DNA of 64,000 nt, taken from NCBI RefSeq assembly GCF_002896875.1, contig NZ_CP023278.1, positions 62,001-126,000 on the forward strand. The letters are read 5' to 3'. Positions 18,204 to 38,365 of this stretch are shown one piece after another; position 1 is the first letter of the stretch; every line of letters begins with the position of its first letter. A model generated the notes under the pieces. It did no database searches. It had not been told where the DNA came from and was given only the letters and a program-made list of their open reading frames with translations. The position numbers were made by a program, and so were the translations under genes. Source of the DNA: Nostoc sp. CENA543. GTDB lineage: Bacteria; Cyanobacteriota; Cyanobacteriia; Cyanobacteriales; Nostocaceae.

Positions 18204-18686
<483 letters not shown>

Positions 18687-20188: not shown

Positions 20189-20489
20189 AACCTAGCGATG
20201 GGGTACAGATGTCAGATAAATCAATATTTTCTGGTGATGGGAGAAAAATAAGTCTATTTTTAGCCTAAATGCAGGTTGTAGAGTTATCTGAGAACAATAT
20301 ATTTTTGCGGTTTAAGACAATATAACTCTTATCGGGTCTGGTTTTTGGGTTTTGCTTGAATTTTGCTTAGATGAAAATTGTAAAATAAAAGACTATTTTG
20401 ATTGATATTATTTTAGATTAATTTGGGTAGGTTGGGCGATCGCACCCTCATCATTTCATTAAGCGAGTGCGATCGGTTTGAATTTTATT

Positions 20490-21136: not shown

Positions 21137-21294
21137 TAAAATTTAAGTTTTGCAAATAACTTAATCTTTTCTATCTCAAGCTTTTGTAGTAGAACTACCG
21201 CAATAACTCTTTAGTTCTGTAAATTTACAAATAAGTTTTCATCGTAGCAACACTAATCAACACTAATCACTTTGCATACCATTCATGGCGATCA

Positions 21295-21412
21295 CTACGG
21301 TAAGCTACGCTAACGCACTCAATAAACATCATGCAATTACCTTGATTCAATAGGCGATCGCACCAACCACCTACTGTAAGCGATCGCCTAGATTGATTAA
21401 ACCCTCATTCAG
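21295..21412. repeat. Dispersed HIP1-associated repeat, copy 1
   Basis: Contains CTACGGTAAGCTACGCTAACGC followed by ACTCAATAAACAT, then GCGATCGC sites and ATTAAACCCTCATTCAG. Related stretches recur at about 22373-22492 and 23399-23432. Confidence 0.6.
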
Positions 21413-21665
21413 ATTCTACTTGGTGAGCTTGTGCATATATCCGCAATGCAGCAGCCATTTTCTGTTCATAATCTTCACCCTGAGACTGAAACCAAGCCAA
21501 TGTTTGAGGGTCTATCTTGACAAGAACACTCAATGATGAAACAGGCTTCCACCAGCGAGACTTGCTAAAAAACTCCTCAGTCAAAGGTGGAATATCTGAT
21601 GTATCAATCTCTTCTTCTGACAAGGAATCAAGTTTCTCCCAGTTCGTCTTTGAGGTATTGTTCAT
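21405..21665 (-). CDS. BrnA-like antitoxin (no BrnT seen)
   Basis: 86 aa. The C-terminal half VSSLSVLVKIDPQTLAWFQS...AAALRIYAQAH matches the BrnA/DUF4415 ribbon-helix-helix antitoxin pattern, with a short acidic N-terminus. A BrnT toxin would normally sit just upstream on the same strand, but the upstream DNA contains the divergent MazEF-like pair instead. It may therefore be an orphan antitoxin or a stand-alone regulator. Confidence 0.65.
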   Translation of the reverse strand: MNNTSKTNWEKLDSLSEEEIDTSDIPPLTEEFFSKSRWWKPVSSLSVLVKIDPQTLAWFQSQGEDYEQKMAAALRIYAQAHQVESE

Positions 21666-21743
21666 ATTGGTTAATTATTCCAGTCTGTCTTAATGTTAAG
21701 ATAACTTAGTAAGATAATATAGTAAGGCTAAGGAGGAATATTC

Positions 21744-21983
21744 TTGGCTAAAAAAGTTACTATTACCCTTGATGATGAGATTCTGGCTTTTATTGACCGA
21801 CAGGCTGCATTAGCTGGAGATACTCCCAACCGGAGTGGCTATGTTAATGCTGTTTTAGCAGAACATCGTCGCGCGGTTTTAGAAGCAGAAATAATTGCAG
21901 CACTCAAAGAAGATAATGAAAACCCTGAATATCAGGCAGAAATAGCAGCTTGGGGTGCCGTTGTGGGAGATGGTATTGAATAA
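21744..21983 (+). CDS. Ribbon-helix-helix antitoxin, MazE-like
   Basis: 79 aa, starting MAKKVTITLDDEILAFIDRQA, a ribbon-helix-helix DNA-binding fold, with an acidic toxin-binding tail. It starts at TTG 21744, supported by AGGAGG at 21731-21736. Its stop overlaps the toxin ATG by one base (TAATG), so the pair is translationally coupled. Confidence 0.85.
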   Translation: MAKKVTITLDDEILAFIDRQAALAGDTPNRSGYVNAVLAEHRRAVLEAEIIAALKEDNENPEYQAEIAAWGAVVGDGIE

Positions 21984-22339
21984 TGCCTAACGGTGTTTTA
22001 ACTTATCGACGAGGGGAAATTCGCTGGGTATCACTTGATCCAACCGTGGGTGCAGAAGTTCAAAAAACACGTTCTTGCCTAATAGTGCAGAATGATGTGA
22101 TGAATCAATATGGTTCTTTAACTATAGTGATGCCATTTCGACCAGGAACTAAAAAAGCCCCTTATGTAGTGAATGTCAAAGCTACAACAAACAATGGTTT
22201 AGACCAAGACCGCTATATTGATGTTGCACAAATTCGTAGTGTCGATCATAGTCGAATATTAGGGTTAATAGGTATTTTGGAAGATGAATATTGGGAAAAA
22301 ATTCGTGCTGCGCTAGATATAGTTTTGAATTTTGAATAA
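21983..22339 (+). CDS. PemK/MazF-family mRNA interferase toxin
   Basis: 118 aa. MazF features are RRGEIRWVSLDPTVGAEVQKTRSCLIVQND, a central LTIVMPFRPGTKKAPYVV, and QDRYIDVAQIRSVDHSRI. It cleaves mRNA and is held inactive by the preceding antitoxin. It lies next to the BrnA-like gene and in front of REP and HIP1 repeats. Confidence 0.9.
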   Translation: MPNGVLTYRRGEIRWVSLDPTVGAEVQKTRSCLIVQNDVMNQYGSLTIVMPFRPGTKKAPYVVNVKATTNNGLDQDRYIDVAQIRSVDHSRILGLIGILEDEYWEKIRAALDIVLNFE

Positions 22340-22493
22340 AACATCCAAATTAAAATTAACCGAGGCGATACCTGCGGTAAGCTGTGCTAACACACTCATG
22401 GCTAAAGTAAGCGATCGCTACAGTAAACTACGCTAACGGATAAAACACACAGAGTAGGCGATCGCCTGATTAATTAAACCCTCATTCAGTTCT

Positions 22494-22558
22494 GTAGGGT
22501 GCGTCAGCTTGGGTAAACTATTTTATCGTGAAAATTAGTTAATGCTGACGCATCCTAC
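22494..22558. repeat. REP-like palindrome, copy 1
   Basis: GTAGGGTGCGTCAGC at the left end and GCTGACGCATCCTAC at the right end, with TATCGTGAAAA between. It matches the palindromes flanking the RAYT gene at 37804, 15 kb away in the same element. Confidence 0.85.
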
Positions 22559-22561
22559 TTG

Positions 22562-22750
22562 CTATTGGTTGCTAGTTTCGTCTAAAGCTTTCTGTATTGC
22601 ATCTCTGCAAAACTGTGCGGGGTCATCTTGTGCTTGTACCGCTTGTTTCATTGATTCGGTGACGCGAAAACTGAGATTAGCTGTCATCGGTTCTTCACCT
22701 TTCCGTATTCCTGGTTCTAAATTTTCAGGTGTTCCTTTGGGGTTAGGCAT
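22562..22750 (-). CDS. Small RHH-like hypothetical protein
   Basis: 62 aa: MPNPKGTPENLEPGIRKGEE, then MTANLSFRVTESMKQAVQAQ. The second part looks like a ribbon-helix-helix strand and helix as in CopG-type proteins. The family is common in cyanobacteria. No toxin partner is evident; it abuts the REP palindrome. Confidence 0.55.
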   Translation of the reverse strand: MPNPKGTPENLEPGIRKGEEPMTANLSFRVTESMKQAVQAQDDPAQFCRDAIQKALDETSNQ

Positions 22751-22877
22751 TTATATATAAATATAAATATCGGTTGAATTGATTGTATGCAATCGATTAG
22801 ACTTTTAAATCGGTGGTCTATGTGTCTGGAAAACTGTAAACCACCGATACCACTTTTAAAGAGGGCAATACTATTTT

Positions 22878-23261
22878 ATGGTGTTTTCACGTCAAGAGTT
22901 GGAATTGTTAACGATTCCAGAATTAAGCCTGTTGGTTAAACGGTACGGATTACGACCTACGGGAACAGGAGGACAAAAGACAAGTTACCTCACTACCCTT
23001 ATGGCGTTTCCATCTCTAGCCCTGCAACAGTTAGAGGAAAGAAGAGGGTTAATCCGTCCTACCTTTGACCAATTACAGATAATGACTGAGATTCTAGATC
23101 AAATGGGAACACTCACACCGGAACAGTCAGCATTGTTGAGGGTGACTTTTGAGGGTAGACGTATGGAATACCCGAAAAGATATGACCAAGAGAAATTACT
23201 AAACTTGTACAAAGTTAGGAATCATTTATCTGAAGTGATTGAACTCTTGGGGATTATGTAA
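22878..23261 (+). CDS. Hypothetical protein with SAP-like N-terminus
   Basis: 127 aa. The N-terminus (SRQELELLTIPELSLLVKRYGLRPTGTGGQKTSYLTTLMAF) has the helix-turn-helix pattern of SAP domains, which bind nucleic acid. The rest is helical, without a recognised motif. It is preceded by a 117-bp gap from the small RHH-like gene. Confidence 0.55.
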   Translation: MVFSRQELELLTIPELSLLVKRYGLRPTGTGGQKTSYLTTLMAFPSLALQQLEERRGLIRPTFDQLQIMTEILDQMGTLTPEQSALLRVTFEGRRMEYPKRYDQEKLLNLYKVRNHLSEVIELLGIM

Positions 23262-23398
23262 TCTCTCTGAAATGTCTTTTGTTGTGTATTTTTCTTGGTT
23301 ATCCAAAGAGTGATAGCACAAAAGACACACCATCGGCGATCGCTATGATAAACTTGACGGCAGCAGCCAATAAACAGAATGCACTAACTAGGCGATCG

Positions 23399-23432
23399 CT
23401 ACGGTAAACTATGCTAACGCACTCAACAAACA
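23399..23432. repeat. Dispersed HIP1-associated repeat, copy 3
   Basis: CTACGGTAAACTATGCTAACGC followed by ACTCAACAAACAT, preceded by GGCGATCG. It is close to the copies at 21295 and 22373. Confidence 0.6.
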
Positions 23433-24035
23433 TTACTGACTACTGAATCGCTGAAAAATTGTCTGCACAATAGCCAAAATAGCCCCTACATTATCCAAGT
23501 AATATCTCTGCTGATCAACGAAAGCTATTTTTTGAGAAAGTTGCAGAAATTGCCATACTTCTCCTGTTGTTACGCATCCATACACAGGTTTTTCTGCTTG
23601 GTTAGATGAACGATTAAATAAATCTGCGGCTACCATTTGAGCGATACATTGTCCTAACCCAGCTTCAACATCATTCTTCTTGGCTTCTACAATAGTGATA
23701 ATTGGCGATCTCAATGGCGGTAACGCTGGAGCTAATGCGAGAATAAAATCACATTCCCCAATTAAACCTTGTGTGGGATCAACATCAAGTCTTTGCCCAG
23801 AAAAAATGGCTAACCTATCTTGGCTGATATCGCGGCAAGCTAGTAGAATTGGTGCAATAATGAACTCACTTCGAGCTTTTTCACTAATTAAAAATAATTG
23901 GGTTTGCTTTTTGAGAGTTTCATTCAACCAAGCAGGTATAGAAAGCGGTACAAGTTGGGGAAACAGATCAGCTGCTTGGGTAGTGATTCCCAAAACAGCA
24001 GCCGCTTTTTCTAGAGTAAAGTCACTGTAAGCCAT
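23433..24035 (-). CDS. PD-(D/E)XK-like protein, family member B
   Basis: 200 aa. It shares SEKARSEFIIAPILL, LIGECDF and ITIVEAKKNDVEAGLGQC with the proteins at 15969-16574 and 32809-33408, and begins MAYSDFTLEKAA. The D...EAK core suggests a nuclease fold. It lies 158 bp upstream of the start of the methyltransferase-nuclease gene's downstream end, same strand, so it is not obviously in that operon. Confidence 0.7.
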   Translation of the reverse strand: MAYSDFTLEKAAAVLGITTQAADLFPQLVPLSIPAWLNETLKKQTQLFLISEKARSEFIIAPILLACRDISQDRLAIFSGQRLDVDPTQGLIGECDFILALAPALPPLRSPIITIVEAKKNDVEAGLGQCIAQMVAADLFNRSSNQAEKPVYGCVTTGEVWQFLQLSQKIAFVDQQRYYLDNVGAILAIVQTIFQRFSSQ

Positions 24036-24193
24036 AGTTTTGCAGTGCTTTGATTACGGGATGATATATCCATTAGGGTAGCTTAACAGTTCCTCGTTCA
24101 TTTATATTGATTAGCAAGTAAGCTCCGCTAATGTACCTAGTAAACAGCTATTTGCTTGATTGGATAGGCGATCGCATGACTTAAGAAACACAC

Positions 24194-26380
24194 CTAGCTT
24201 TCCAACTTTCTAAGAAAATCCGCTAGCACAGCCTTATTCTGAAAATTTGCCCTAATTGTGTCATTGTTGTTGTAATCAACAATAACTTCAAATTTTTCAA
24301 ACCTACCACCAGGAATATCAATATCAACTGTATTATTTAATTCTAAAAGTGCTTCATCAATACTCCCAAATTCATATCTCACTCCGAAAAGTGGGATGAT
24401 AACTATTTTAGTAATGTAACGCTCAAGACAGTTTCTGAGTGTTGTCATGAAAGTGTCTACTTCTTTTTGAGAAACTTGCATTAGAGCCTGTCTAAGTTTC
24501 TCTTTCTCTGAACTAGTAAGACTGGCTAATCTCTTTGATGCCGTAGTATAAATTTCATCAGGAGTTTCTTCATCAAATGCAACGTCAAAGTCAATAATTT
24601 TAAATGCAGACACTACTTCTTTATAAGGAATATAAATAACCGCGAAGCCATTATTTCTCAATTGTTCTAAAGCTGGTTTTGTGAAGTCTCCAGCTAACAC
24701 TACTCCGTAAAATGGTGCTGACAGATGATGAAGTTCAATAATTGGTAATATAGCTCCTTGTATTTCTTGAGCCTTGTTCTTGGAGTGTTTTGTATATCTA
24801 CGCCATGCAGATTCAATAAATGCTACTGGTCTACCCAGTTTATCATCTGTACCATCAACTTCAATAACAAAATCTAAATCATGTTTGTTGCCATACTTAT
24901 CTGCCCAAGTTACCTTTTTTCCAGTTCTAGCTGGACGAGATTTTTGGTAATCAAGATAATAGTTTTGGCTTTGAGCAAACTGCTGTAGTCGAGGTTTAAG
25001 AATATCGTCAAGTACAATATCTTCCAGAAGCTTGCCCAGGGCTTGACCAAATTTATGTGATGGTGATTGTGCCATAATATTGCTTTCTATCCAAAGTCTG
25101 CCTTCATGTAGTGGAACATCATGTTTTCTGTTTTTCCACTTAACATTTCGTTCTCTAATTTGCTCAAAATTCCAAAACTCAAATCCTGCTGCAAGAGCCA
25201 ATTTACCGAGCCACTTTTCCACAGGCACATATACACCATAAGGGGCTGAATCTCCTACTACCATACAAATTTTACAATCCGATGTCGTAACTCGTTGCAG
25301 AGAGTGGAACACAGATCCCATGTCTGCAAAATAAGCAGCAATCATAGTATGATATGCCTTATTACCGCCCTTAGTGCCTCGCACGATTTCTAACTCTTTG
25401 CAGACAGGAATTAATTCATCTTTGATGGGTTCAATAATAGATTTAGCTATCAAATCATCTAGGTTCAGACGCTCTTTAGAAACGTGTTGCGAACTAGAGC
25501 GTATTAAGAATTTCCGCACTGCTTCATGCAAGTCTCCCCAGGAATTAATTTCGCCCCAAAAGGTCATTTCTAGACGTGTAGCGTCTGCGTAATCATAGTT
25601 ATTGGCATAGGGTGGAGATGTGATAACTAAGTCAATTAATTTATCTGGAATAGATTGTAGATTTCTAGCATCTCCTTGAATAAGATTAGCTCTACTAACT
25701 TTGGTAAGAGACTGCATCAAAAGCATATCCTCTTGCATCAGATAAGCTTGTTTCTCTAGAGCATCAAATGGTTCACAAGTTTTGATTTTTCTTTTATTAG
25801 GTAGAACATATTGCCATTGTGCCGTCCCTACATAACTTGATGGACGTAAAATAGCATTAATTGTGAGAAAAACAAGAAACTGTAATTCATTAGATAAATT
25901 TGGAGATATTTCTAGATATGCTTGCCTAATTTTCAAAAGGTTTATTAGCGTCTCATCTGTATAACACTTATTTAGTAGATCAGGAAGATTTTCTGGTAAT
26001 TTTAGTTTAAGGTTAGTAGCCAAATGCTTAATATCATTGATTACTTCTAAAAAAGTATCAATATCTAGATTCCATGAAAGCTTTCCTTTCGCAAGCCGAT
26101 AAACGAAAGGATGTGCTTCAACACCGTAGGAACTAACACCTAACTTATCAGCAACAATACAAACAGTACCAGACCCTACAAATGGATCAAGAATAGTTTG
26201 AGGAGCTAAATCTTTGATTAATTCTTCAACCCAAGCAGCAGAAAAACCCGCAGAATAGCGAAACCAGCGATGAACAGGTAATTTCATGTTATCAATAAAA
26301 CTACCTGTCCTTTCTCTGACAATTTTGGGACAATCATCAGAATTTGAGTTGAACAGCTGAAGCTGAAAGGAATTAGTCAT
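24194..26380 (-). CDS. DNA methyltransferase fused to nuclease-like domain (type IIG-like R-M)
   Basis: 728 aa. The N-terminal methyltransferase has the SAM-binding motif TILDPFVGSGTV (about 60) and the amino-methylase motif LVITSPPYANNYDYAD (about 250), which point to m4C or m6A. From about residue 440 the sequence is unlike methyltransferases: KYGNKHDLDFVIEVDGTDD...AFIESAWRRYTKHSKNKAQEI has D and E residues in a PD-(D/E)XK-like order. This suggests modification and cleavage in one protein. ATG at 26380 (MTNSFQLQLF) is chosen over TTG at 26389. No separate endonuclease gene adjoins it. Confidence 0.8.
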   Translation of the reverse strand: MTNSFQLQLFNSNSDDCPKIVRERTGSFIDNMKLPVHRWFRYSAGFSAAWVEELIKDLAPQTILDPFVGSGTVCIVADKLGVSSYGVEAHPFVYRLAKGKLSWNLDIDTFLEVINDIKHLATNLKLKLPENLPDLLNKCYTDETLINLLKIRQAYLEISPNLSNELQFLVFLTINAILRPSSYVGTAQWQYVLPNKRKIKTCEPFDALEKQAYLMQEDMLLMQSLTKVSRANLIQGDARNLQSIPDKLIDLVITSPPYANNYDYADATRLEMTFWGEINSWGDLHEAVRKFLIRSSSQHVSKERLNLDDLIAKSIIEPIKDELIPVCKELEIVRGTKGGNKAYHTMIAAYFADMGSVFHSLQRVTTSDCKICMVVGDSAPYGVYVPVEKWLGKLALAAGFEFWNFEQIRERNVKWKNRKHDVPLHEGRLWIESNIMAQSPSHKFGQALGKLLEDIVLDDILKPRLQQFAQSQNYYLDYQKSRPARTGKKVTWADKYGNKHDLDFVIEVDGTDDKLGRPVAFIESAWRRYTKHSKNKAQEIQGAILPIIELHHLSAPFYGVVLAGDFTKPALEQLRNNGFAVIYIPYKEVVSAFKIIDFDVAFDEETPDEIYTTASKRLASLTSSEKEKLRQALMQVSQKEVDTFMTTLRNCLERYITKIVIIPLFGVRYEFGSIDEALLELNNTVDIDIPGGRFEKFEVIVDYNNNDTIRANFQNKAVLADFLRKLES

Positions 26381-26593
26381 TAAAAACAAGATGGAATGTG
26401 TTGCTGTGGCTTAGTCTGGGAAGGCCAAACTAGTCCTTGAGTTACGGATATACAGACCTAGTGTAAGCGATCGCATGACTTCATCCCAAACAGTAAGGCG
26501 ATCGCCAAAATAAAACTATTCAGTTAGTTCTTCTTCACCCTCAGAATCATCTTCTGTTTCTGCTTCTGCAAGCATCTTAATGCGATCGCCCAA

Positions 26594-27673
26594 TCATTTT
26601 GCTAAAGCACCACTCATGGGTAGTTCTGTTGCATCTGGAAAGTGAGGCATACGATAACGACTATCATGAGTATGTTGAGCAATGAGCGCGGGTAAGATAT
26701 CTTCGCTATGCCAAAGAATGCAGATTTCTCTTGGTAGTGGGTAAGCAAAACGTTTTCTGGGTTCTGGATCTACCAATGTAACTTTCTTTATTTTGCTCTG
26801 TTTCTGCGTTTCCTCATCAATTAGAGTCTCACTAGAAATTGCAATTCGCATACCTCCTAATTTAGATGCACCCTTGGCTATTCCTTTACTGGTTTGCGGT
26901 TTTTGTGCGCTAGAAATAAAAGTTGGTGGTGTCTTTGGTGCTGTTGGAATTTGAAAAATCGCATCTGTAATCATATCCTCGCCTTTGGGGTCAAGGTTCT
27001 TATCAGCAGGACATTTGGGATTTAAAGCATAACCAATACCAATTTCGTATGGTTCACGGATTCGGACTATTTGTAGCTTGCATTTTTTAGGTCGCCACTG
27101 TTTTTGTTTCCTGCTACCATCTTTGGACTCAATCGGAACTTGAATATCACCAATAATATGTTGTTTGTTTTGCAGCCAAGGCCAACACAGCCTAGTTGAT
27201 TCAGCCTTAACTGTCAGGATTACAGGTTGATTCGTAAAATAATTATCGATCGCATCTAAAATTTGTTCAATATGTCGCGCTTGAAATTTTGGCATGGGAT
27301 TTCCAGTTTGAGCGATCGCATCTTGCCAATTCATCCATTGATTTTTATTTACGCCAGGGAAATAAACAACGCGTTTTCCATCCGGTAAAACAGCAACAGC
27401 GTAAGCAGTTTTCCCTGATTTTCCTTCTAATCCTGTCTTGCGGTTGAAGCGTTCTACCCAAAGACAGACCTCAACAAATTGTTCTGGTGGAGGTGGATAA
27501 ATGGTTGGTGGTTGAGGATTACCCTTATTATCAAGTTTGGGATCATCAAAGTGTTCGTAGGCAGGGGGCATATTTAATAAATCTACTAATACTAAATCAG
27601 TTAAGGTATTAATTAATTTAGGTATGGGAGATTTTGCATTGTCATTTACCTCCCAAGTAAAACATTTCACCAA
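26594..27673 (-). pseudogene. pPIWI-RE-like protein, C-terminal (RNase H-like) part only
   Basis: 359 aa. The sequence TAYAVAVLPDGKRVVYFPGV..., WPWLQNKQHIIGDI and the tail REICILWHSEDILPALIAQ...YRMPHFPDATELPMSGALAK resemble the RNase H-like/PIWI C-terminus of pPIWI-RE proteins. Those proteins are about twice as long; the N-terminal and MID-like parts are absent. The frame is open without a start for 10 more codons upstream and the apparent start is a TTG without a good ribosome site. Both facts suggest truncation. It lies downstream of a helicase that is cut short and a Y-domain/nuclease gene, in the order of the three-gene pPIWI-RE island. Family call is from memory. Confidence 0.6.
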
Positions 27674-27815
27674 ACGTCCAAATCTAGTTGCTATAGGAAT
27701 CCGACTTGATTATTGAAATTATTTGCGTAGGTAGAGAACTCTTAACAGGGAACAGGGAACGGGAAAAGAAGTAACAGAGGTGTACTGAGTTTTTTTCAGG
27801 GATCAAATATGAGTC
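27674..27815 (-). other. Probable deletion scar between helicase and pPIWI-RE remnant
   Basis: 142 bp without coding capacity, containing a short AACAGGG repeat. The helicase upstream lacks its second domain and the next gene lacks its N-terminal half. One internal deletion here would explain both. Confidence 0.5.
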
Positions 27816-29735
27816 CTATATCTGCTGAAGATAAGATTTAGGATCTTGTTTTTTGTCGTAGTTATCTTTTGGATCGATTTCTACTAAACAGCCTATATAG
27901 TTAGAGCCATGATTCTGTTGCCCTAAATGCTGAGTAAACTGTACATCTTCAGTAGCAGCCAAAATGTCAACTAACCCTTGAACAATGCTTTTTTGAGCAT
28001 CATGGAGTAGATAAGTATCTGGTTGTGTTGGCCTTGAGCGAAAGGTAATGAAAGCTTTGAATAACTCATCTCTTTGACTATCACCACTTTCTTGACCACT
28101 AAGGATATCTGCCAAATATCCGAAGATTTGCCATCCTGCAAAAAATTGTCCACCTTCTACCCACCCACTCAGCGATTTATATTGTTTTCTGTCAGCCTCT
28201 AGCAATAAATTCATCAAGTCTGTTCCATTTTTAAACAGCCGAGAGTATAGACTAAAGGCAAATGTGACATCACTTCTGTCTGGATTAGGTGTACCAATTC
28301 GTCCTTCATGGGAGCCATTGGCAAGCGATTGAAACAGCTGGCGGCAGAACGTATCAGCTTTTGAGCGGTTAGTTTCAAACACTTGAGCAGGTGCAAAACT
28401 ACAATCCATTTGTGCCTGGACACCATCGCCTTCATCGACAAACACTGCATCACAAGTTTTGTGAATTGTTTCTAACCAGACTGTCTGTTCTGGTTGAATA
28501 ACGGCTGTTGGCCCTGCATAAATCATGCCAGGAGGTGTTGTTAAGATAATTGCAGCTTTTCCTAAATCTCGTGTACCTTGATGGCGTGGGCAAACAGGAA
28601 GTAAAGGACAATCATATACTCTTTCGGGTTCGTCTGATTTCTGTAACTGCTTTATGCAAGGTGGTTCTTCGTTAATTTGTAAGGGACTAGATAGAAAAAC
28701 TGACAATGGACAAGCTTGGTGAAATTGAGTGTAAGCATAGTGGTTGAAGTCCACACCATCGATTAGTAATCTGGTGTAATGTTCTTCACGATTAAGCCGA
28801 CCAATCACAACACCTGGAGAACAACCCACGCGATGAAATAAATCTGCTTGATTAAGGAGCGATCGCACATCTCGGTATACAATCGCGCAAGTATAATCGT
28901 GCCTTTCTAACCAAATTGCCGCGACCGCAAAGATAGTTGATTTTCCTGCTGCACAAGGGCCTAGTAAATGTTCTTTGCCATTCAAACGCAATTCGTTTAC
29001 TTTTCTCAGTCCTGATTTTGTGACCTTATGCAAACCATTCAGTGCATCCTTTACACGATGTACCCAATTGAGTGGGATTTTTTGATCTAATTCTTCTGCA
29101 ATGCTAATTAAATCATCAAAAGGGATGGCGATCGCTCTAGCAGAAATTCTCTGCCGTAAAGTCAGATCAATGTTGGGTAACGAACGCAACCCACATTCTG
29201 CTAATTGTTCATTAATTCGGACTGAGCGTGGTTTGTTATTGCTGTCAATAATAATATAGTCACCTGCCGGTGCAGGTCTATACTCAGTGCGTATTTTAAG
29301 CGGAGCCGGATTTTGGAGAAAATTTCCATAGGCATTAAATCTATCAGGCGCACATGAGATACCCCGATGAATTGGTCTATCTTGTTGATTAAGGTCGTAG
29401 CCACGTACTCTATAAAAAGCTGGAGCGTTTAGATATTTGTGTAAATAATCTTGCCATACTGCCTGACTGCGAATATGCCGAAGATAGCCGCGCAGTCGGC
29501 TAATCAGTTTTTTCTTTTGCTGTAGGGAGTTGACAGGGATTCCTTGAAGCAAGTATCCAAAATCCTTTGCAGATATGCCCGGAAATTTTGTTTCAATAGC
29601 ATAAAGAGCCAATTCTATACGTACAAAATCAGTAAACTTTAACCAAACATCTTGCGGTTGATCTCGCTCAAGTTGCTTCCATGTCTCCTTGAATTGGTCT
29701 TGATAAAGTTGTGAGTACCACCTTGCATCCTTCAT
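27816..29735 (-). CDS. pPIWI-RE-island DinG/XPD-like helicase, C-terminally truncated
   Basis: 639 aa. An N-terminal domain of about 250 residues resembles the domain Z of the pPIWI-RE three-gene island. Then come Walker A (LLGPCAAGKSTIFAV, about 258), possible Fe-S cysteines (CIKQL, YDCPLLPVCPRHQ) and a DEAH-like box (DAVFVDEGDGVQ). The protein ends at YLQQI soon after domain 1; the second RecA-like domain with motifs IV-VI is missing, so the helicase is probably inactive. Its start overlaps the stop of the upstream gene by 4 bp. Confidence 0.65.
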   Translation of the reverse strand: MKDARWYSQLYQDQFKETWKQLERDQPQDVWLKFTDFVRIELALYAIETKFPGISAKDFGYLLQGIPVNSLQQKKKLISRLRGYLRHIRSQAVWQDYLHKYLNAPAFYRVRGYDLNQQDRPIHRGISCAPDRFNAYGNFLQNPAPLKIRTEYRPAPAGDYIIIDSNNKPRSVRINEQLAECGLRSLPNIDLTLRQRISARAIAIPFDDLISIAEELDQKIPLNWVHRVKDALNGLHKVTKSGLRKVNELRLNGKEHLLGPCAAGKSTIFAVAAIWLERHDYTCAIVYRDVRSLLNQADLFHRVGCSPGVVIGRLNREEHYTRLLIDGVDFNHYAYTQFHQACPLSVFLSSPLQINEEPPCIKQLQKSDEPERVYDCPLLPVCPRHQGTRDLGKAAIILTTPPGMIYAGPTAVIQPEQTVWLETIHKTCDAVFVDEGDGVQAQMDCSFAPAQVFETNRSKADTFCRQLFQSLANGSHEGRIGTPNPDRSDVTFAFSLYSRLFKNGTDLMNLLLEADRKQYKSLSGWVEGGQFFAGWQIFGYLADILSGQESGDSQRDELFKAFITFRSRPTQPDTYLLHDAQKSIVQGLVDILAATEDVQFTQHLGQQNHGSNYIGCLVEIDPKDNYDKKQDPKSYLQQI

Positions 29736-30754
29736 TTAGCAATGTCTCCTTTAATACGAGTGAGCAAATCATTTGCCCATAAAACTGGCACATTAGGCTT
29801 CAGGTTGACTTGCAACGCATGACGGTAGTGTTGAGAATCTCGCCAAGGTGGTAAAACAAAATAAGCGTCATTCCAACTTGGTTCAGACGGAATAGTATCA
29901 GTATTTAATCTGCGTGCCAGTTGTTTTGCACTGCGAGCATCTTTGACATCTATCGCTAAAACTTTCCCCGCAACTTCAACGCGCAAATCATAAGCATCAT
30001 CACCTGGCCACAATTCAGGCTGTAATCCTAACTTTGTCAATTCATCAAACAGCCAAAGTTCTGCAAGTCCTGGTCGCACAATATACATTGCTGCACCGTG
30101 ATTCACTCGAAAAACCTCTTTGGTATTTTCAGGTGGTGTCCAAGGACTACACATAGGACGACCACACTTTTCCGGCTCATATTGACGACCACACTTTTCA
30201 CATAAATTAAGACGATGAGCCACAGGACAAATTTCATAAAACTTTTCTAAATGTCCCCGCGCCAGCCCCAGTGCTACTGAGTTATTACAGGCTTCTTCAA
30301 TGATGTCCTCTATAATAATTGTATGTAGAATCATCCATTGCCTTGCTTCTATATATAATTCAGGTCGCCCCAAGGCAGTTGCAAGAGACTTGATTTGCAA
30401 AATGACACGCTGTTGAACTTCTCCAACAATATCTCTGCTAGTAATAGACAACTCCTCACATAGCCATGTAGGTTCTTTAAAATAATCCAACAAAGGCTCA
30501 TCTGCTTCAACTTGCTCGACGAAATCAGGTTCAATCTCACTCAAGGATTCACGCGCTTTGGTATATAAATCGTGTACACCTCCTACTTTTGGAATACCAT
30601 CCTTTAAAATTTGGTGAGCGCAGATGTGATTGAGTGCTTGGACAAGATGTGCATTGACTATCCATCGTTCTTTACCACGTTCCTTGGCATCCACTGCTTC
30701 TAATAAGCCAGTTGCCAGCAAGTGCAACGCTATTTCTAAACTTGGTTTGCTCAT
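29732..30754 (-). CDS. pPIWI-RE-island REase with N-terminal Y-type domain
   Basis: 340 aa. A helical N-terminal domain (1-200) is followed by a zinc-finger-like pair (CEKCGRQYEPEKCGRPMC) and a nuclease domain with YDLRVEVAGKVLAIDVKDARS, the D...VK of a PD-(D/E)XK fold. This matches the REase gene that accompanies pPIWI-RE and a DinG-like helicase. It is the first gene of the operon (overlapping the helicase start by 4 bp). A full IS sits 116 bp upstream of its start, possibly cutting its promoter. Confidence 0.65.
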   Translation of the reverse strand: MSKPSLEIALHLLATGLLEAVDAKERGKERWIVNAHLVQALNHICAHQILKDGIPKVGGVHDLYTKARESLSEIEPDFVEQVEADEPLLDYFKEPTWLCEELSITSRDIVGEVQQRVILQIKSLATALGRPELYIEARQWMILHTIIIEDIIEEACNNSVALGLARGHLEKFYEICPVAHRLNLCEKCGRQYEPEKCGRPMCSPWTPPENTKEVFRVNHGAAMYIVRPGLAELWLFDELTKLGLQPELWPGDDAYDLRVEVAGKVLAIDVKDARSAKQLARRLNTDTIPSEPSWNDAYFVLPPWRDSQHYRHALQVNLKPNVPVLWANDLLTRIKGDIAK

Positions 30755-30870
30755 ATTTTTTTGATATACCTTGAATGAATTGATGCGCTACTAGCAAACT
30801 TGCCCTGAAACATAACGCCAACATAAAAGTTAATCTATCTAAATATTTTTTTAGTTCTAGTCGCTTATAT

Positions 30871-32373
30871 CTGGAGTTTAGACTAGTTCCCGGTGCGACA
30901 ACGAAAAATAAGGGGTGTGCTTGAACACAGTCCCCTATTAGCAGAAGCTGAGAGAAGAACCACCAACTCTCATCTGCCAATATGAACCGTGCCAAATTAG
31001 AGGAATTTCGTCAAGCAGCGTATAACTATCTAGGTAGAGCGCATGATGCAACATTTGAACTGATGGATGCAATATTGCTAACTCGGAACGCTTACAGTTT
31101 GGCAGATTTATCACTATCACCAGCATTTAGACGCAAGTGGTCAAGTATTTATGAAGCGTTACAAGATAGCAGGCCACAGCGACAAAAATTGATGCAGTTA
31201 TACATCAAACAGATGCCACACCAGGGTCGTCCGTTGTTGGCTGGCGACCATACAGCTTGGCCAAGGCCAGATGCGGTAACGCTACAGGAAAGGACAATTG
31301 AACACAGCAGTGTCTCAATGGGAGGTGACAAACCAATCACCATTGGTCAGGGCTATAGCACCATTGCTTGGATACCGGAGAGTTCGGGCAGTTGGGCATT
31401 ACCATTGAGACACGAGCGAATTACCAGTTGGGAAAGCCCAATCCAGAAAGCAGCATGGCAATTACAACAAGTTTGTGAAAATTTACCTACCAGACCAATT
31501 TCGGTTTGGGATAGTGAGTACGGGTGCGCTCCTTTCGTTTTGAAGACGAGTAATATTAAAGCAGACATTTTGGTACGTTTGCGTTCAAATCTTTGTTTAT
31601 GGGGCGCACCACCACCATATTCTGGCAAGGGACGACCGAGAAAACATGGTGATAAATTTAAGTTGAATGATGCTTCGACATGGACTCAAGCCATTCAAAC
31701 TATAGAAGTAAATCATCCAAAACTAGGACGTATCAAGGTGAGCTTGTGGTCAAATTTTCATTTTCGGAAAGCCGCTACACGTCCGATGTCCTTGATTCGG
31801 GTTGAGCGTCTTGATGAGCTTGGCAACTTGCGGGTGTCAAAACCTTTGTGGTTGGCTTGGCTGGGAGAACAAATGCCGCCTTTAGAAGAAGTTTGGCAAC
31901 TCTACTTGCGGCGTTTTACTGTTGACCACTGGTATCGCTTTTTGAAGCAACGCTTACACTGGACTCTTCCCAAGCTACGTACCCCTAAGCAATGTGAGCG
32001 TTGGAGTGACTTAATGCCCATCATGACTTGGGAATTGTGGTTAGCCCGTGATATCGTTGCAGACAACCCTTTACCTTGGCAAAAGTTATTAGTTAGTTTG
32101 ACTCCAGGTAGGGTTGCTCAGGCGATGGGAAGTATTTTAGCGACGATTGGTACTCCTGCCCGTCCGCCCAAACCTCGCGGAAAGTCCCCTGGCTGGAAGA
32201 CTGGACAACCCCGACAACGTAGAATTCGCTATCCTGTTGTTAGAAAAACTACAACTAAGCCACGTAAGCAACAATCAGAATCTGCTTAAGATTGTCGATT
32301 TTTATGTCTAATGCCTATTTATTTTCAACTCAGCCTTCCTGGGTCATTTTTTGCTGCTTAGTCTAAACTCCAG
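30871..32373 (+). mobile_element. Complete insertion sequence, 1,503 bp
   Basis: The terminal inverted repeat CTGGAGTTTAGACTA occurs at 30871-30885 and, inverted, at 32359-32373. A 6-bp direct repeat TTATAT flanks it (30865-30870 and 32374-32379), a probable target-site duplication. It holds one DDE-type transposase gene. Confidence 0.92.
30982..32289 (+). CDS. IS4/IS701-like DDE transposase
   Basis: 435 aa transposase. Catalytic Asp residues are likely in LLAGDHTAWPRP and ISVWDSEYGCA. The third acidic position is in YLRRFTVDHWYRFLKQRL, where relatives have a YxxRFxxE-type motif; here it is D. The C-terminus is basic. It lies between matching terminal repeats, so the element seems intact. 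Confidence 0.88.
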   Translation: MNRAKLEEFRQAAYNYLGRAHDATFELMDAILLTRNAYSLADLSLSPAFRRKWSSIYEALQDSRPQRQKLMQLYIKQMPHQGRPLLAGDHTAWPRPDAVTLQERTIEHSSVSMGGDKPITIGQGYSTIAWIPESSGSWALPLRHERITSWESPIQKAAWQLQQVCENLPTRPISVWDSEYGCAPFVLKTSNIKADILVRLRSNLCLWGAPPPYSGKGRPRKHGDKFKLNDASTWTQAIQTIEVNHPKLGRIKVSLWSNFHFRKAATRPMSLIRVERLDELGNLRVSKPLWLAWLGEQMPPLEEVWQLYLRRFTVDHWYRFLKQRLHWTLPKLRTPKQCERWSDLMPIMTWELWLARDIVADNPLPWQKLLVSLTPGRVAQAMGSILATIGTPARPPKPRGKSPGWKTGQPRQRRIRYPVVRKTTTKPRKQQSESA

Positions 32374-32808
32374 TTATATCTCCTGTGGTACTAACTTAGC
32401 TGAGTAGTTTTGGAAAATATTTATCTAAATTTATTAGTGGGTAATTATATTAATTTTCAAGTTTTAAAGCAAGAAGTTGAACCCAGAATAGAGAGCTTAT
32501 GATTTTTTCTATTTGTTATACTATGTTTATATTTATTTCAGAAATTTTGTAATTCTTAATAATATGTCAACTGTATATAGTTGATTTGTTTGAGGTTATA
32601 GTAAATTTACTTTAGTAAAAAAACCTAACTCTGTAAAATGTAGACTCGTGGCAGCTTACTAATTGAAGAACTTGATTTGAAAAAACTATTGCAGAAAAGA
32701 TTGAAACACAAAGATTCAGTGCAACGAATAATTGTCTGGTTTTGGTTATTTTTGCTTAAATTAGTCAGTAAGTCGAAATCGCAAATCTAAATCATGGGAT
32801 AACTTCAA
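32374..32808. other. AT-rich gene-free stretch after the IS
   Basis: No credible ORF. It holds an inverted repeat TCAACT/AGTTGA at 32567-32584 and TTTACTTTAGTAAA nearby. It is presumably the promoter region of the next gene and, before IS insertion, the upstream DNA of the pPIWI-RE-like operon. Confidence 0.5.
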
Positions 32809-33408
32809 ATGGCTTATAGTGATTTTACATTAACTAAGTTTAAAAAAGATTTTCATATTCATATCGATGAAGAAAATGATTTATTTGCTAACATCGAGCC
32901 TATACCGATAAGTGATAAACTAACAACAACTCTGGAAGAAACAACAGAGTTAGCATTGGCAATTAATACAGAAAAAGCTCGCTCTGAAATGATTATTACG
33001 CCTATTTTATTGGAGGTAAGGCGTAAGGCTAATTATCAGATTAGTTTATTTTCAGGTACAGATTTTAATGTTGATACTGAGAAGGGATTGAATGGTTATT
33101 GTGATTTTGTCATCAGTCGTTCTAAAGAACAGTTGACAATTAATGCACCTGTAATGATTATTATTGAAGCTAAAAATGAAAATATTAAAGGTGGATTAGG
33201 TCAATGTATGGCGGCCATGTTGGCAGCGCAGATATTTAATGAACGAGAAGGAAATGAAATTAAATCTATTTATGGTGCAGTGACAACAGGAGATATTTGG
33301 AAGTTTATGAAGTTGGAAGGTACTGATTTGTTTGTTGATTTAAATAATTATTACATTAAAGAATTAAATAAAATTTTAGGTATTTTATATCAAGGAATCC
33401 AAGGTTGA
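32809..33408 (+). CDS. PD-(D/E)XK-like protein, family member C
   Basis: 199 aa. It has TEKARSEMIITPILLEVRR, LNGYCDFVISRS and VMIIIEAKNENIKGGLGQC; the EAKK of the paralogs reads EAKN here. It begins MAYSDFTLTKFKK as does member B. It is third in a family shared by both excision elements. Confidence 0.7.
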   Translation: MAYSDFTLTKFKKDFHIHIDEENDLFANIEPIPISDKLTTTLEETTELALAINTEKARSEMIITPILLEVRRKANYQISLFSGTDFNVDTEKGLNGYCDFVISRSKEQLTINAPVMIIIEAKNENIKGGLGQCMAAMLAAQIFNEREGNEIKSIYGAVTTGDIWKFMKLEGTDLFVDLNNYYIKELNKILGILYQGIQG

Positions 33409-33438
33409 AAGCCGGCGATCGCCTGTATAATTCCTTAA

Positions 33439-33930
33439 TTATGTAGTTATCTGCTTTCTTGGAGGGTAAGGCTTTAAATAAGCATACCTATGCTTACTTA
33501 AATGTTCTGCTAGTTCGACAAGCATACTTTGTACATTATTAGGAAATGAATCAAATGGGTTTGGACTCTCTACTAAATCAACAAAACGCTCACATAGGTT
33601 TATACTTTGCCGACATTGATACTTAATTTCTTTTGCCTCCACTAATTTTTCAAATGTTAATGCCTCACTTAAAATCAGCGTACTTAGATAAACTGAAAAA
33701 AATGCAGATTGTAAAGTATTTGAGGCTTGCCAGTATGAATAATAAATATCATCAGAACGATAGTTTCCAGAAGCCATCATATTAGGATGAGTATGCTCAC
33801 TTAAAAATGGAAACATAAAAGTATGTACTTCTTTGTCAAATTGATACGTACTTCCGTAAACTAAAGTTGATATACTTATGCCGTAAGTTGATATCTCACC
33901 AGTTTCAGAATCTATGACTTGGTTAGACAA
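33439..33930 (-). CDS. Hypothetical protein
   Basis: 163 aa, with no family recognised. Helical, with aromatic-rich stretches (DDIYYSYWQASNTLQSAFFSVYLSTLI) and a polar C-terminus. It has a HTHP motif near residue 46 that could bind metal, but this is weak. It lies convergent with the PD-(D/E)XK-like gene. Confidence 0.5.
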   Translation of the reverse strand: MSNQVIDSETGEISTYGISISTLVYGSTYQFDKEVHTFMFPFLSEHTHPNMMASGNYRSDDIYYSYWQASNTLQSAFFSVYLSTLILSEALTFEKLVEAKEIKYQCRQSINLCERFVDLVESPNPFDSFPNNVQSMLVELAEHLSKHRYAYLKPYPPRKQITT

Positions 33931-34219
33931 CTTATAGCGTTTCCTAATCTGCTAAGGTACAAATCTCTGCGTAACTCTGCGCTTTACTCCGCGCTCCTCT
34001 GCGTTTCAAAATATTATTTGTATCTCACTTAACTGGGAATCGCTATATACAGTTATATACTACAAATTAGAAATATTAATATTGCTTTATATTTCAAGAT
34101 AATCCACTCTAAAAAGTGAGCCTATAACTGCATTAGATTTTGGTAAGGAGTTGGCGATCGCCGAAATTTATCGTGGTATAGTTTTTGAGTAAAATAGCTC
34201 GAAAAGGTGATAATTTTGA

Positions 34220-34780
34220 CTACAGCAACCAACTAAACAAATCTTGAATTGTTAATTGAAGTTCACTAGCAAATGATGGTACAAGTATAAGTGCATCTGG
34301 ATCATCAAATACTTCAGTTTCTTGTTGAGGGCGGTAAACAAATACAGTTTGCTCATCGGGGTCAATTAACCAACCCATTTGAGTACCATGTTTCAAACAG
34401 TGAATGATATTTTTAGTTACTTTTGTCTGACTTTGATCAGGTGATAAAATTTCAATTGTCCAGTCGGGAGCGATAGGAAAAGTATTAGCAATTTCCCTAT
34501 TCTCGTCGCGGGGAATCCGACTCCAATTAAAAACAGAGATATCAGGTACAGTTGAACGACCGCCAAATGTACAACGCAGTTCTGAAAATGCTCTGGCAAT
34601 TTGTTTCGGTTTAAAGATTATGTTGAAATTAGTACAAAATTCAGTTTGAATTGCGCTGTGTTTTCCTTGCGGCATAGGTTTTTGGATAATTTTACCTTCT
34701 ATGTATTCACTGGCGGGTTCTGTTTCTGGTAATTTCAGGAACTCGTCCAATGTGATGGGTTTAGATGGGGTCTGTACCAT
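34220..34780 (-). CDS. Uma2 family endonuclease-like protein (DUF820)
   Basis: 186 aa from ATG at 34780 (MVQTPSKPITLDEFLKLPET). Uma2 signature: PASEYIEGKIIQKPMPQGKHSAIQTEF, FGGRSTVPDISVFNWSRIP, APDWTIEILSPDQSQTKVTKNIIHCLKHG. The fold is PD-(D/E)XK. The family is hugely expanded in cyanobacteria and often linked to mobile DNA. Its role is unknown. Confidence 0.88.
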   Translation of the reverse strand: MVQTPSKPITLDEFLKLPETEPASEYIEGKIIQKPMPQGKHSAIQTEFCTNFNIIFKPKQIARAFSELRCTFGGRSTVPDISVFNWSRIPRDENREIANTFPIAPDWTIEILSPDQSQTKVTKNIIHCLKHGTQMGWLIDPDEQTVFVYRPQQETEVFDDPDALILVPSFASELQLTIQDLFSWLL

Positions 34781-34910
34781 TAAGACTACCTCGCACAAGG
34801 GAGTAACTGGCTTTGTGTATATTATATGTGATTGTACTTTATATTTTGCGATCAGCTATGTTGGGCAGTTACGCGATCGCCTGTGAATATATCTGCAATT
34901 TTATTATCTG

Positions 34911-35246
34911 TCACGCTACGCCATATTGTGTATATTGCCGTAGATAAGATGGCTGTAAACCCAAAACAATATCGTCTTTAGGTACTCCCATTTCAGTCAA
35001 ATCTTCAGCAATCTGGATATCTGTCATATTGCGCTGAATCCATATTTTTTCATTTTTAATATCGAGATGTATGACACAGTTATAAATTCGGTCATATCCA
35101 TTCCAGCCAATGTCTAGAATTTGGTAATGATCTCGCACTGTATCAAATATTAATTGCTCTTCTACATCTTCCTCTAAAGGTTTATAGCTAGCATATTTTG
35201 TGAGTAATTCCTGAATATATTCCCGATATTTATCTAGTTTTGCCAT
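34911..35246 (-). CDS. xisI: XisI-like protein (excision controlling factor family)
   Basis: 111 aa. Typical XisI sequence: MAKLDKYREYIQELLTKYAS, DTVRDHYQILDIGWNGYDRIYNCVIHLDIKNEKIWIQRNMTD, and LGLQPSYLRQYTQYGVA. XisI acts with XisH and the XisF recombinase for fdxN-element excision in Anabaena. Here no XisF is seen and xisH is reduced to a scar just upstream. The scar's stop overlaps the xisI start by 13 nt. Confidence 0.9.
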   Translation of the reverse strand: MAKLDKYREYIQELLTKYASYKPLEEDVEEQLIFDTVRDHYQILDIGWNGYDRIYNCVIHLDIKNEKIWIQRNMTDIQIAEDLTEMGVPKDDIVLGLQPSYLRQYTQYGVA

Positions 35247-35299
35247 TGTAAAATCACCTCTCCAGTAGGATCATAATGAAAAATGTCTTTTGCAGACAC
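35234..35299 (-). pseudogene. xisH scar: N-terminal start fused to C-terminal end
   Basis: Reading from GTG at 35299: M-S-A-K-D-I-F-H joins directly to Y-D-P-T-G-E-V-I-L-Q-W-Q-N and stop. The first eight residues match the start of XisH and the rest match its end, so the middle of the gene was deleted in frame. It overlaps the xisI start, as an intact xisH would. Confidence 0.7.
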
Positions 35300-35423
35300 G
35301 GACACTACCAGAACCCAACACTCATATCATACCTAATCTATGGAGAGATAAAGCGATCGCGTGTGTATATACCTGCAACTTTATCCTTATTATGTTGAGG
35401 CGATCGCTTGTCTTCTAGCGTCA

Positions 35424-36194
35424 TCATTCTATAATTAAAGTCAAGTATTGCTCAACTTCACAAATATAGTTTTGCAATCCAGTATGCACACCTCTTTCAC
35501 GCAAAATTTCTAAACTGGTATCTTCCCAGCACAGACATTCACGTTCCATCTCATTGCCTGTGAGTTGTTCAATTACTACTTTGGGATTTCTAATTCGCTC
35601 AGGTTCTTCCTGTGAAGTAGAGCGTAGTCTGTGTGAATCTATGCAAGGATCAAAACTCAGTTTAGTTCTGATTGCTTCTAAAAGTTGTTCTTCTTGCTGA
35701 TTAGAAGGAATAAATCCATTTAAAACCCATGCTTCACGTTTTGGGTTAGCTGTACCAACTATAATTTCTAGTTTTGGCTGTAGTTCAATATGTTGAGAAC
35801 GTGCTTGTTCAATCCCTTCTCTACGTTCTGGTTGATTATCTAAATCACGGATCAATAAAACAGCTTTAATATGTCGTGTTCTTTGCAAAAACCTAATTAA
35901 ATTAAGAACCTTAATAGATGCTGCTCCATCAGCTTTAAAAGGCACACCATTACTATCATGACCTAGAAATCTTGAAGGTTTATATTTTAGCTTTTCTTTG
36001 GCATCATCAATAATTTTCAGAATGTCTCTCCAGCAAGAATATTCTGTTTCTTCCTCTAATCCTGTCCATTGAAATATATGTTGTATTAGCTCAGGTTCTA
36101 ACCAATTAACTTTTTCTAATAAAACACGCTCGGCTAATTTAGTAGCAGTTCTAAAATCTGCACCACTTTCAACTATGACAATGAACTCAATCAC
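35424..36194 (-). CDS. Toprim-like partner of AAA ATPase
   Basis: 256 aa from GTG at 36194. The N-terminus (MIEFIVIVESGADFRTATKLAERVL) and AVLLIRDLDNQPERREG give a Toprim-like pattern of Glu, then D-x-D. C-terminal half: IIVGTANPKREAWVLNGF. Its start overlaps the stop of the upstream ATPase gene by 8 bp. ATPase plus Toprim-like pairs occur in OLD-like and PARIS-like defence systems; which class this belongs to is not clear. Confidence 0.6.
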   Translation of the reverse strand: MIEFIVIVESGADFRTATKLAERVLLEKVNWLEPELIQHIFQWTGLEEETEYSCWRDILKIIDDAKEKLKYKPSRFLGHDSNGVPFKADGAASIKVLNLIRFLQRTRHIKAVLLIRDLDNQPERREGIEQARSQHIELQPKLEIIVGTANPKREAWVLNGFIPSNQQEEQLLEAIRTKLSFDPCIDSHRLRSTSQEEPERIRNPKVVIEQLTGNEMERECLCWEDTSLEILRERGVHTGLQNYICEVEQYLTLIIE

Positions 36195-37344
36195 TCACTT
36201 CTCCTTCCACAACCCACTCTTCACCCTCAGCATCCCAAAATTCACCAGTTGTTAAGGTTTGTTTTGCCCATTCCACATCAGGATGTTCATCTAAGCGTTT
36301 AGCAACCGTGAAACCTGAGTTACTGTTATTTAATATATGTACTTGAGAAGGAACAAGCTCATCAACAATATATGGTGAATGAGTAGAAAAAATAATTTGT
36401 AGATTTGGATTATCTGCAATAATTTCCTTAAACACAGTCATTAATTCGCGTTGAGCTTTGGGGTGAAGTCCCTGTTCCACATCATCTAGTAAAACTAAAT
36501 TAGGTTGACTAGGGTTCATCAACACAGTTAGTAATCCCAAAGTTAGGATTGTTCCTTCACTAATTGCATGGGCTGGAATACGCTCTCCTGTATTCATGTC
36601 TAATATCACTTCTTGCCCTGTCATTTCTTGGGTTTCTTCATAGAAAATTCGCTTACCATCAGCTTGAATGAAACGTTGTCTAGATACTGGAACTTTTGCT
36701 CGCCTTATGCCAATTCTGCGAACATTTGGCACAATTCTACTAAGTTTTTCTTCTATTAATTCAAATTTTTCTGGAGCTTCATCTCGCAAAAAATCTAAAG
36801 TAGGTGCTAATAGGAAAGAACCATCAGTTTCCACTTTAGGAGTAATTTCATCACTGTAAGCTGCTTTGCCAAGATTACCTGCTACTAATTTCAGATAAAC
36901 AGCATAGTTTAAATAATCATGGATTAATCTTGGTGATTTTATTAAAGAGTTATCCCATCCTGAAAAATGTTCCCATCCTTCCCCTGTAATTTCTTTTTCA
37001 TCAATCTTCCATGCTAATGACGGCAACCATCCTCCATAGTTTTCCTTGCTAAACGTATAAAGAACACCCCATGAATATTGTGATTCTTCCTGTGTCCAAA
37101 AACCACTAGCTAGTACAGACATATTTTCTTCACCAATTGTGGTGATAAAACTTGGAGATTGGTCTTTTTTGAATATTTGAGAAAACTCTGAATTGGCAAG
37201 TTTACATAGGTTATATAATGCTTGCAGAACAGAGGTCTTACCAGCACTATTTTTACCTACAAGTCCATGTAATCTGGAGTTATCGAAATTAAGTTGTGTA
37301 TTCTTATGGCTTTTGTAATTGTTTAATCTTACATTTTTCAGCAT
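36187..37344 (-). CDS. SMC/OLD-like AAA ATPase (AAA_15/AAA_21)
   Basis: 385 aa. Walker A GLVGKNSAGKTSVLQAL (about 28-44), a signature-like HAISEGTILTLGLL, Walker B PNLVLLDDVEQGLHP, and the switch His in IFSTHSPYIVDEL. It begins MLKNVRLNNYKSHKNTQLNFD, typical of stand-alone RecF/OLD-like ATPases in anti-phage modules. It is followed by, and overlaps, a Toprim-like gene. Confidence 0.85.
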   Translation of the reverse strand: MLKNVRLNNYKSHKNTQLNFDNSRLHGLVGKNSAGKTSVLQALYNLCKLANSEFSQIFKKDQSPSFITTIGEENMSVLASGFWTQEESQYSWGVLYTFSKENYGGWLPSLAWKIDEKEITGEGWEHFSGWDNSLIKSPRLIHDYLNYAVYLKLVAGNLGKAAYSDEITPKVETDGSFLLAPTLDFLRDEAPEKFELIEEKLSRIVPNVRRIGIRRAKVPVSRQRFIQADGKRIFYEETQEMTGQEVILDMNTGERIPAHAISEGTILTLGLLTVLMNPSQPNLVLLDDVEQGLHPKAQRELMTVFKEIIADNPNLQIIFSTHSPYIVDELVPSQVHILNNSNSGFTVAKRLDEHPDVEWAKQTLTTGEFWDAEGEEWVVEGEVSD

Positions 37345-37379
37345 TTATTTGTTGATAATTAATTCAAAACTTATTTTCG

Positions 37380-37529: not shown

Positions 37530-37676
37530 GGACACTACCAGAACCCGATACTAATATAATATCTAATCTATGGAGATATATATAAAGCGATCGCCTCTCC
37601 ATCCACCTGCAATTTTATCCTGATTATGTATAACTACGGCAAGCTACACTAACGCTCTTTTCCCGAAAATTATCCT

Positions 37677-38355: not shown

Positions 38356-38365
38356 CCCATATATT

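Follow-up and report, generated by a model that had tools for sequence, protein, structure and literature searches.

The stretch of DNA analysed here, referred to below as the window, comprises 64,000 nt of Nostoc sp. CENA543 (assembly GCF_002896875.1, contig NZ_CP023278.1, positions 62,001-126,000, forward strand), and carries on its minus strand three open reading frames (ORFs) related to the pPIWI-RE islands, at 29732-30754 (340 amino acids, aa), 27816-29735 (639 aa) and 26594-27673 (359 aa), the first two overlapping by 4 bp. The three-gene pPIWI-RE island, comprising a restriction endonuclease (REase), a DinG-like helicase and the pPIWI-RE protein itself, was described by Burroughs et al. 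in 2013 (PMC3702460) and is represented in Pfam by PF18154, PF18155, PF18156 and PF13032. Each of the three ORFs is recognized by a family of this kind, the first by pPIWI_RE_REase (E=3.8e-22), the second by pPIWI_RE_Z (6.4e-23) and the third by RNaseH_pPIWI_RE (1.2e-21), and PADLOC assigns them in the same order to PprRE (3.8e-26), PprDinG (2e-47) and PprPIWI (1.8e-25); an NCBIfam search with the three proteins gave no match. With the gene order of the pPIWI-RE island and its overlapping or closely spaced termini, the locus is, on these domain matches, a real three-gene island of REase/Y, Z/DinG-like helicase and PIWI genes. The initial annotation had read the order as an REase with CxxC knuckles, a DinG-like helicase and a PIWI/RNase H-like protein, which the Pfam and PADLOC similarities of all three proteins bear out. 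It had also held that the helicase is cut short and that the PIWI protein has lost its N-terminal half, and both losses are real, as only positions 13-494 of 930 in the PprDinG profile and 487-700 of 718 in the PprPIWI profile are covered. The features of the locus and of the element that carries it are collected in Table 1.

Table 1. Features of the pPIWI-RE locus and its surroundings (window coordinates)
Feature	Position	Strand	Evidence and remarks
nifD excision element carrying the locus, 20.3 kb	20178..40452	+	Repeat search, flanking genes; 11-bp repeats 20178-20188 and 40442-40452
Acidic C-terminus of the PIWI gene, stranded; 25 codons + stop	26516..26593	-	Beyond TGA 26594-26596
Rest of MID + RNase H-like (PIWI) domain	26597..27691	-	PIWI profile 627-892, E=6.4e-22; Pfam, PADLOC; annotated ORF 26594-27673
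MITE-like insertion, boundaries approximate	~27692..27820	.	Inverted ends, genomic copies
First PIWI MID piece, residues ~600-638 of the 639-aa ORF	27821..27940	-	PIWI profile, Pfam MID (weak), shuffles
Deletion junction, approximate	27930..27956	-	Profiles and alignments to relatives
Helicase half of the 639-aa ORF, end approximate	27957..29735	-	Profile E=6.2e-80 and alignments to L032, L033, L077
PprRE: pPIWI_RE_Y domain, Cys-rich knuckle, PD-(D/E)xK-like REase domain; 340 aa	29732..30754	-	Pfam, PADLOC, alignment
IS element; DDE_5 transposase 30982-32289	30870..32376	+	Copies in genome, inverted ends
XisA-type recombinase	38905..40323	-	Phage_integrase E=2.3e-4 (below curated cut-off); no NCBIfam match

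Lesions of the three genes

Profiles were built from the loci of relatives (18 helicases, 17 PIWIs and 13 REases, all from loci later scored in the survey described below), and those of the helicase and the PIWI were compared with the stop-to-stop minus-strand frames of positions 20000-32000. The 639-aa ORF matched the helicase profile at positions 12-576 of 1130 (E=6.2e-80), with nothing matched after 576, and its residues 599-638 matched the PIWI profile at positions 526-564 (E=0.0054), while positions 1-525 of the PIWI profile were unmatched in these frames. The closest complete relatives, L032 (genome G045), L033 (G002) and L077 (G204), differ from the window in being intact, with REases of 352-357, helicases of 1117-1118 and PIWIs of 873-885 aa from stop to stop, and share 29-31% identity with its helicase. 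Helicase homology to all three stops at residue 594 of the 639-aa ORF, and among the helicase matches listed none extends beyond query residue 586 except the window itself. Aligned with the MID domain of L077, the tail of the ORF scores 64, a value reached by none of 500 shuffles (mean 28.5, maximum 47); with the PIWIs of nine relatives, 0-5 of 500 shuffles reach the score for eight and 124 of 500 for L184. The ORF consists of helicase sequence from residue 1 to ~594 and of PIWI MID domain at ~600-639, and the end of helicase homology together with the MID match therefore places a junction near 27930-27956. A plain one-domain helicase is ruled out for this ORF, since its last ~40 residues match PIWI MID.

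Alignment to the intact loci maps the missing segment, which by alignment coordinates measures ~2774 bp relative to L077 and 2762 bp relative to L032, and spans all helicase residues from ~628 onwards (of 1117-1118) as well as the first ~460-470 residues of an 880-885-residue PIWI frame. A deletion of ~2.8 kb, mapped by comparison with these relatives, has joined the helicase and the PIWI MID domain in one frame, with its junction inside the 639-aa ORF. The helicase half keeps the Z domain, a helical region and what we take to be the Walker A motif, the Cys cluster and the DExx box (VDEGDGVQ); the second of the two RecA domains that a complete DinG-type helicase has beside its Z domain and Cys cluster is absent. 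A single deletion had indeed been offered in the initial annotation to explain both truncations, and one deletion still accounts for them, but its proposed site at 27674-27815 is ruled out, as that interval is almost entirely a miniature inverted-repeat transposable element (MITE) and the junction lies ~115-140 bp away in the helicase-like ORF.

The MITE-like insertion is ~129 bp long and has imperfect terminal inverted repeats of 27 nt, the arms at 27692-27718 and 27794-27820 being 74% complementary. In its own genome the stretch 27688-27817 has 45 matches (98 candidates, of which 40 were scored), a count that takes in the stretch itself and partial hits; 14 of them extend over 120 or more of its 130 bases, and a further copy (G000:C1:4071483-4071612) is 100% identical. 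Inspection by eye shows TA at either end of this copy and of several others. Being short, non-coding, present many times and bounded by terminal inverted repeats, the insertion has the hallmarks of a MITE; one of its ends holds the stop codon of the 639-aa ORF, and beyond it the frame resumes with MID-like and then RNase H sequence. The repeat is best read as a MITE inserted within the PIWI MID domain, a lesion separate from the deletion.

No single PIWI frame unites the X, MID and RNase H-like domains, the X domain being unmatched and the MID domain split by the MITE. Further downstream, an in-frame TGA at 26594-26596 cuts off the tail of the gene; the acidic tails of intact relatives are similar by eye, and the PF13032 match runs past the TGA by one codon only. 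In the stretch that may correspond to the conserved Arg and Glu of the family's PIWI domain, the window reads, by eye, VRIRE...YEIGI, and L032 VRIRD...NEVPQ. The Asp of L034 and L035 is, again by eye, absent at the same positions in the window, L032 and L033, for which reason the clade may have been non-catalytic even before decay. A single-sequence search with the 359-aa PIWI fragment in 99 genomes (its own and 98 relatives) found only the window, so that profiles were needed.

The REase gene can be aligned end to end with seven relatives, including a YDL...AIDVKD stretch that we assume to be the REase motif, and no lesion was seen. Its PF18154 match (3.8e-22) is accompanied by one to PF18156 just below threshold (3.7e-5, 24.6 bits against a cut-off of 26.7), and the Y domain, zinc ribbon and REase fold are all in place, the Cys knuckle and the alignment being judged by eye; aligned in this way, the REase is the sole whole gene of the three. 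An insertion sequence (IS) of ~1.5 kb, with inverted ends of 20 nt (95%), lies upstream of the REase gene, 115 bp separating its left end from the start of that gene. Ten further copies of 1.4-1.5 kb with 100% identity are present in the same genome, and the IS is regarded as a recent insertion.

Related loci and the rarity of the architecture

The helicase query found matches in 27 of 99 genomes (E<=0.001) and in 76 of 217 genomes of the family (E<=1e-10). A class-wide search of 388 genomes gave no closer relative, with four genomes, its own included, matching at E<=1e-20; a plasmid search returned 15 records, all below 60% identity and the best rows at ~25%; and a scan of contigs for relatives returned one genome, that of Chlorogloeopsis fritschii. 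Within its own genome, searches gave one match for the PIWI domain and one for the helicase, both being the locus itself, and a second copy supplying the functions is thereby ruled out. From the helicase matches, 96 stretches of 4.7-20 kb (20 + 20 + 56) were chosen and scored together with the window as 97 loci, the places on G164:C129, both places in G336 and the weaker places of the 99-genome search lying outside this survey. A locus was called complete when a single frame covered the REase from <=110 to >=419 of 439, the helicase from 60 to 1090 of 1130 and the PIWI from 60 to 880 of 920.

All three proteins are complete in single frames in 61 of the 97 loci; five are cut by the end of the stretch, and 31, the window included, are incomplete, some of which (e.g. 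L037, L080 and L091) end near a contig end, so that not all are proven pseudogenes. Losses across the helicase-PIWI boundary affect five of the 97 (the window, L076, L078, L081 and L091), those of L076 (731 bp) and L078 (775 bp) being separate deletions by comparison with near relatives. The most similar to the window is L081, where nearly the same span is lost (helicase match to ~590, PIWI match from ~730); this deletion is its own, however, as little is left of the REase gene there and the helicase and PIWI pieces do not share a frame. The architecture of the window is shared by none of the 97 scored loci, contig-end loci such as L080 not being judgeable, and intact homologues of just these lengths, which could have spoken against a broken locus, were not found among them.

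The nifD excision element and the remnant in Chlorogloeopsis fritschii

Around the locus, the window contains two copies of an 11-bp direct repeat, GGATTACTCCG, starting at 20178 and 40442, against none in 100 shuffles; its sequence is presumably that of the nifD element repeat. The ORF before the element is nifD (TIGR01282, E=1.1e-240), whose match goes no further than position 441 of 466; after the element comes nifK (TIGR01286, E=4.9e-275), the ORF at 40783. Counted from the ATG at 18826, the insertion lies at about nifD nucleotide 1353, next to a nifD variant at 1355 (+/- 2) described in PMC4874684, the main text of which does not contain the word PIWI. The recombinase gene inside the repeats, which we call XisA by its position, completes the features of a nifD element, in which 11-bp direct repeats within nifD enclose a recombinase, and the island is cargo of this predicted 20.3-kb nifD excision element.

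The C. fritschii PCC 6912 genome holds the same element, with repeats at 4204 and 12103 of L031 (7.9 kb) and a recombinase to which that of the window is 92.6% identical. Its remnant of the locus (L031, on the contig that also carries L075) resembles the window in element and neighbours and shows 92.9% DNA identity over 1351 bp at the REase-helicase junction, but differs in that the first ~167 residues of the REase and everything past helicase residue 278 are gone. No PIWI profile match and no DNA match to the MITE or IS stretch were found in it. A nifD, nifK or recombinase gene was found near no other scored locus (E<=1e-8 in the 96 fetched stretches, whose length larger elements could escape).

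The ratio of non-synonymous to synonymous substitution rates (dN/dS) between the window and C. fritschii is 0.183 for the REase part (173 codons) and 0.206 for the helicase part (278 codons), beside 0.136, 0.249 and 0.100 for three neighbouring genes; the shared parts have therefore been mostly under purifying selection since their common ancestor, which suggests that selection acted on the remnant until recently. Because the REase of the window is whole, the REase deletion in C. fritschii is placed after the split. Late damage to the window locus is suggested by the continued constraint on its helicase part and by the fact that the MITE and the IS have identical copies, the C. fritschii remnant being without the deleted region. 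As a separate observation, the remnant at 28903-30253 is closer between window and C. fritschii (93% DNA identity; dS 0.18-0.25) than the element genes at 32866-34836 (77-89%; dS 0.33-1.5), and this higher likeness perhaps reflects exchange within the element.

The rest of the nifD element (20490-40323) is rich in defence- and mobility-like genes, among them an EcsC-like candidate (PDC-S29), a MazF/PemK toxin family member, a Uma2 family member, XisI and a Y1 transposase, together with two PD_DExK proteins (23433-24035 and 32809-33408). Directly downstream of the remnant, a 731-aa ORF (24194-26389) joins a type II methyltransferase to a type II restriction enzyme, each forming one half of the protein (PADLOC MTase_II 5.7e-131, REase_II 3.7e-58). 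At 35424-37344, an AAA ATPase (AriA/HEC-01A/Old-like) overlaps by 8 bp with the next gene, whose 256-aa product neither Pfam nor PADLOC recognizes, and the two look like a PARIS- or OLD-type defence pair. The nifH gene is split as well, into 9358-9858 and 18270-18686 (TIGR01287 positions 1-141 and 152-273), by an excision-type element of ~8.4 kb, which carries an integrase-family recombinase of its own (16688-18115) and a two-gene PADLOC candidate system, PDC-M16A/B (10068-12755 and 12758-14371).

A probable ruined pPIWI-RE operon and its alternatives

Taken together, the locus is very probably a formerly complete pPIWI-RE anti-invader operon of REase, DinG-like helicase and PIWI genes, which was housed inside a nifD excision element and is now a pseudo-operon; most likely it is the recent ruin of a known system and not a new minimal one. 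The window resembles the island described in PMC3702460 in its gene order, the 4-bp overlap of its first two genes, its remaining diagnostic domains and its Cys-rich REase and helicase, and differs from it in the deletion of the helicase C-terminal half, the X domain and part of MID, in the MITE in MID, in the late stop and in its location in a nifD element. The 2013 proposal for the family is that DNA-RNA hybrids are recognized by PIWI, acted on by the helicase and cleaved by the REase; in the intact operon, the PIWI would accordingly most likely have recognized RNA-DNA hybrids or R-loops on invading DNA, upon which the helicase would unwind or translocate and the REase would then cut. The PIWI-RE nuclease of Pseudomonas stutzeri, described in 2022 (PMC10991935, the abstract of which is silent on the present operon) as capable of RNA-guided DNA and DNA-guided RNA cleavage, belongs by name to the same PIWI family and is set beside the window by description only, the window fragment being without the N-terminal half. 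The operon has been broken by the internal ~2.8 kb deletion, which took the second RecA domain of the helicase, the X domain and part of MID, by the MITE within MID and by the TGA ahead of the C-terminal tail; a recent IS also lies just upstream of the first gene. What would be left as products is a whole REase and half a helicase that should not work as such; as a guide-binding module is missing too, the system is expected to be dead. The P. stutzeri enzyme, for its part, presumably represents the standalone-gene class among the two contexts of the 2013 paper.

Several points weigh against this reading of a ruined operon. The helicase-MID join is in frame, the REase is intact and the remaining frames are otherwise open, which would fit either a recent decay or a selection that still acts in part. 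Over ~520-540 helicase residues, identity to the closest complete relatives is only 29-31%, and the junction is therefore placed to within ~10 codons. Pfam's own MID match at residues 599-636 of the 639-aa ORF is weak (E=0.1, 13.3 bits against a cut-off of 26.6), and the TGA costs just the last 25 residues, a loss that may be mild or tolerated.

Partial salvage, in which PprRE alone has kept a use (as an orphan nuclease or a regulator, say) while the other pieces are junk, would fit the full-length REase with its motif, its dN/dS of 0.18 against the C. fritschii fragment and its place at the head of the operon, where the upstream IS could supply or remove a promoter. The same gene in C. fritschii, however, lacks its first ~167 residues, the dN/dS may mostly reflect the time before either copy broke, and we know of no use of this REase without its partners, all of which leaves salvage unlikely. 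A minimal working form, in which the helicase-MID protein and the PIWI C-terminal protein act with the REase as split subunits, is far less probable still. The in-frame join, the open frames and the intact REase speak for it, as does L076 (genome G230, 2773-7947, minus strand), where the 731-bp deletion, with a breakpoint overlap of 6 bp against L033 and 2 bp against L077, fuses helicase and PIWI into a 1725-aa open frame. Yet in the window the second helicase domain and the X domain are lost, the MITE places a stop within MID and interrupts the fused frame, the TGA precedes the C-terminal tail, no scored locus is built alike, and in L076 itself the REase gene is in three pieces; the suggestion in the initial annotation that the system may persist as a minimal form thus finds no support. 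That the locus is in truth intact and only appears broken through an error of assembly or base calling is barely conceivable: although the TGA depends on a single codon, the join is clean and in frame, the surrounding contig measures 6.99 Mb, other near full-length copies of the MITE have flanks of their own, and the C. fritschii locus is independently broken.

It is a bold and very improbable conjecture that a compact helicase/MID/PIWI chain may at one time have existed in the window, that helicase-PIWI fusions may serve temporarily as reduced or single-chain pPIWI-RE effectors, and that nifD elements may carry defence genes discarded in heterocysts; a literature search brought up no paper in which PIWI proteins and heterocyst excision elements are connected. 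For annotation, the ruined operon is a warning that its 639-aa ORF is not a short helicase and its 359-aa ORF not a minimal Argonaute-like protein. For the family, it shows a route by which a pPIWI-RE locus dies, through internal deletion, insertion of a MITE and an IS, and a late stop. For the biology of these bacteria, the presence of a pPIWI-RE locus in a nifD element, a type of element that heterocyst-forming cyanobacteria excise, is a hint that such elements collect, and lose, defence genes.

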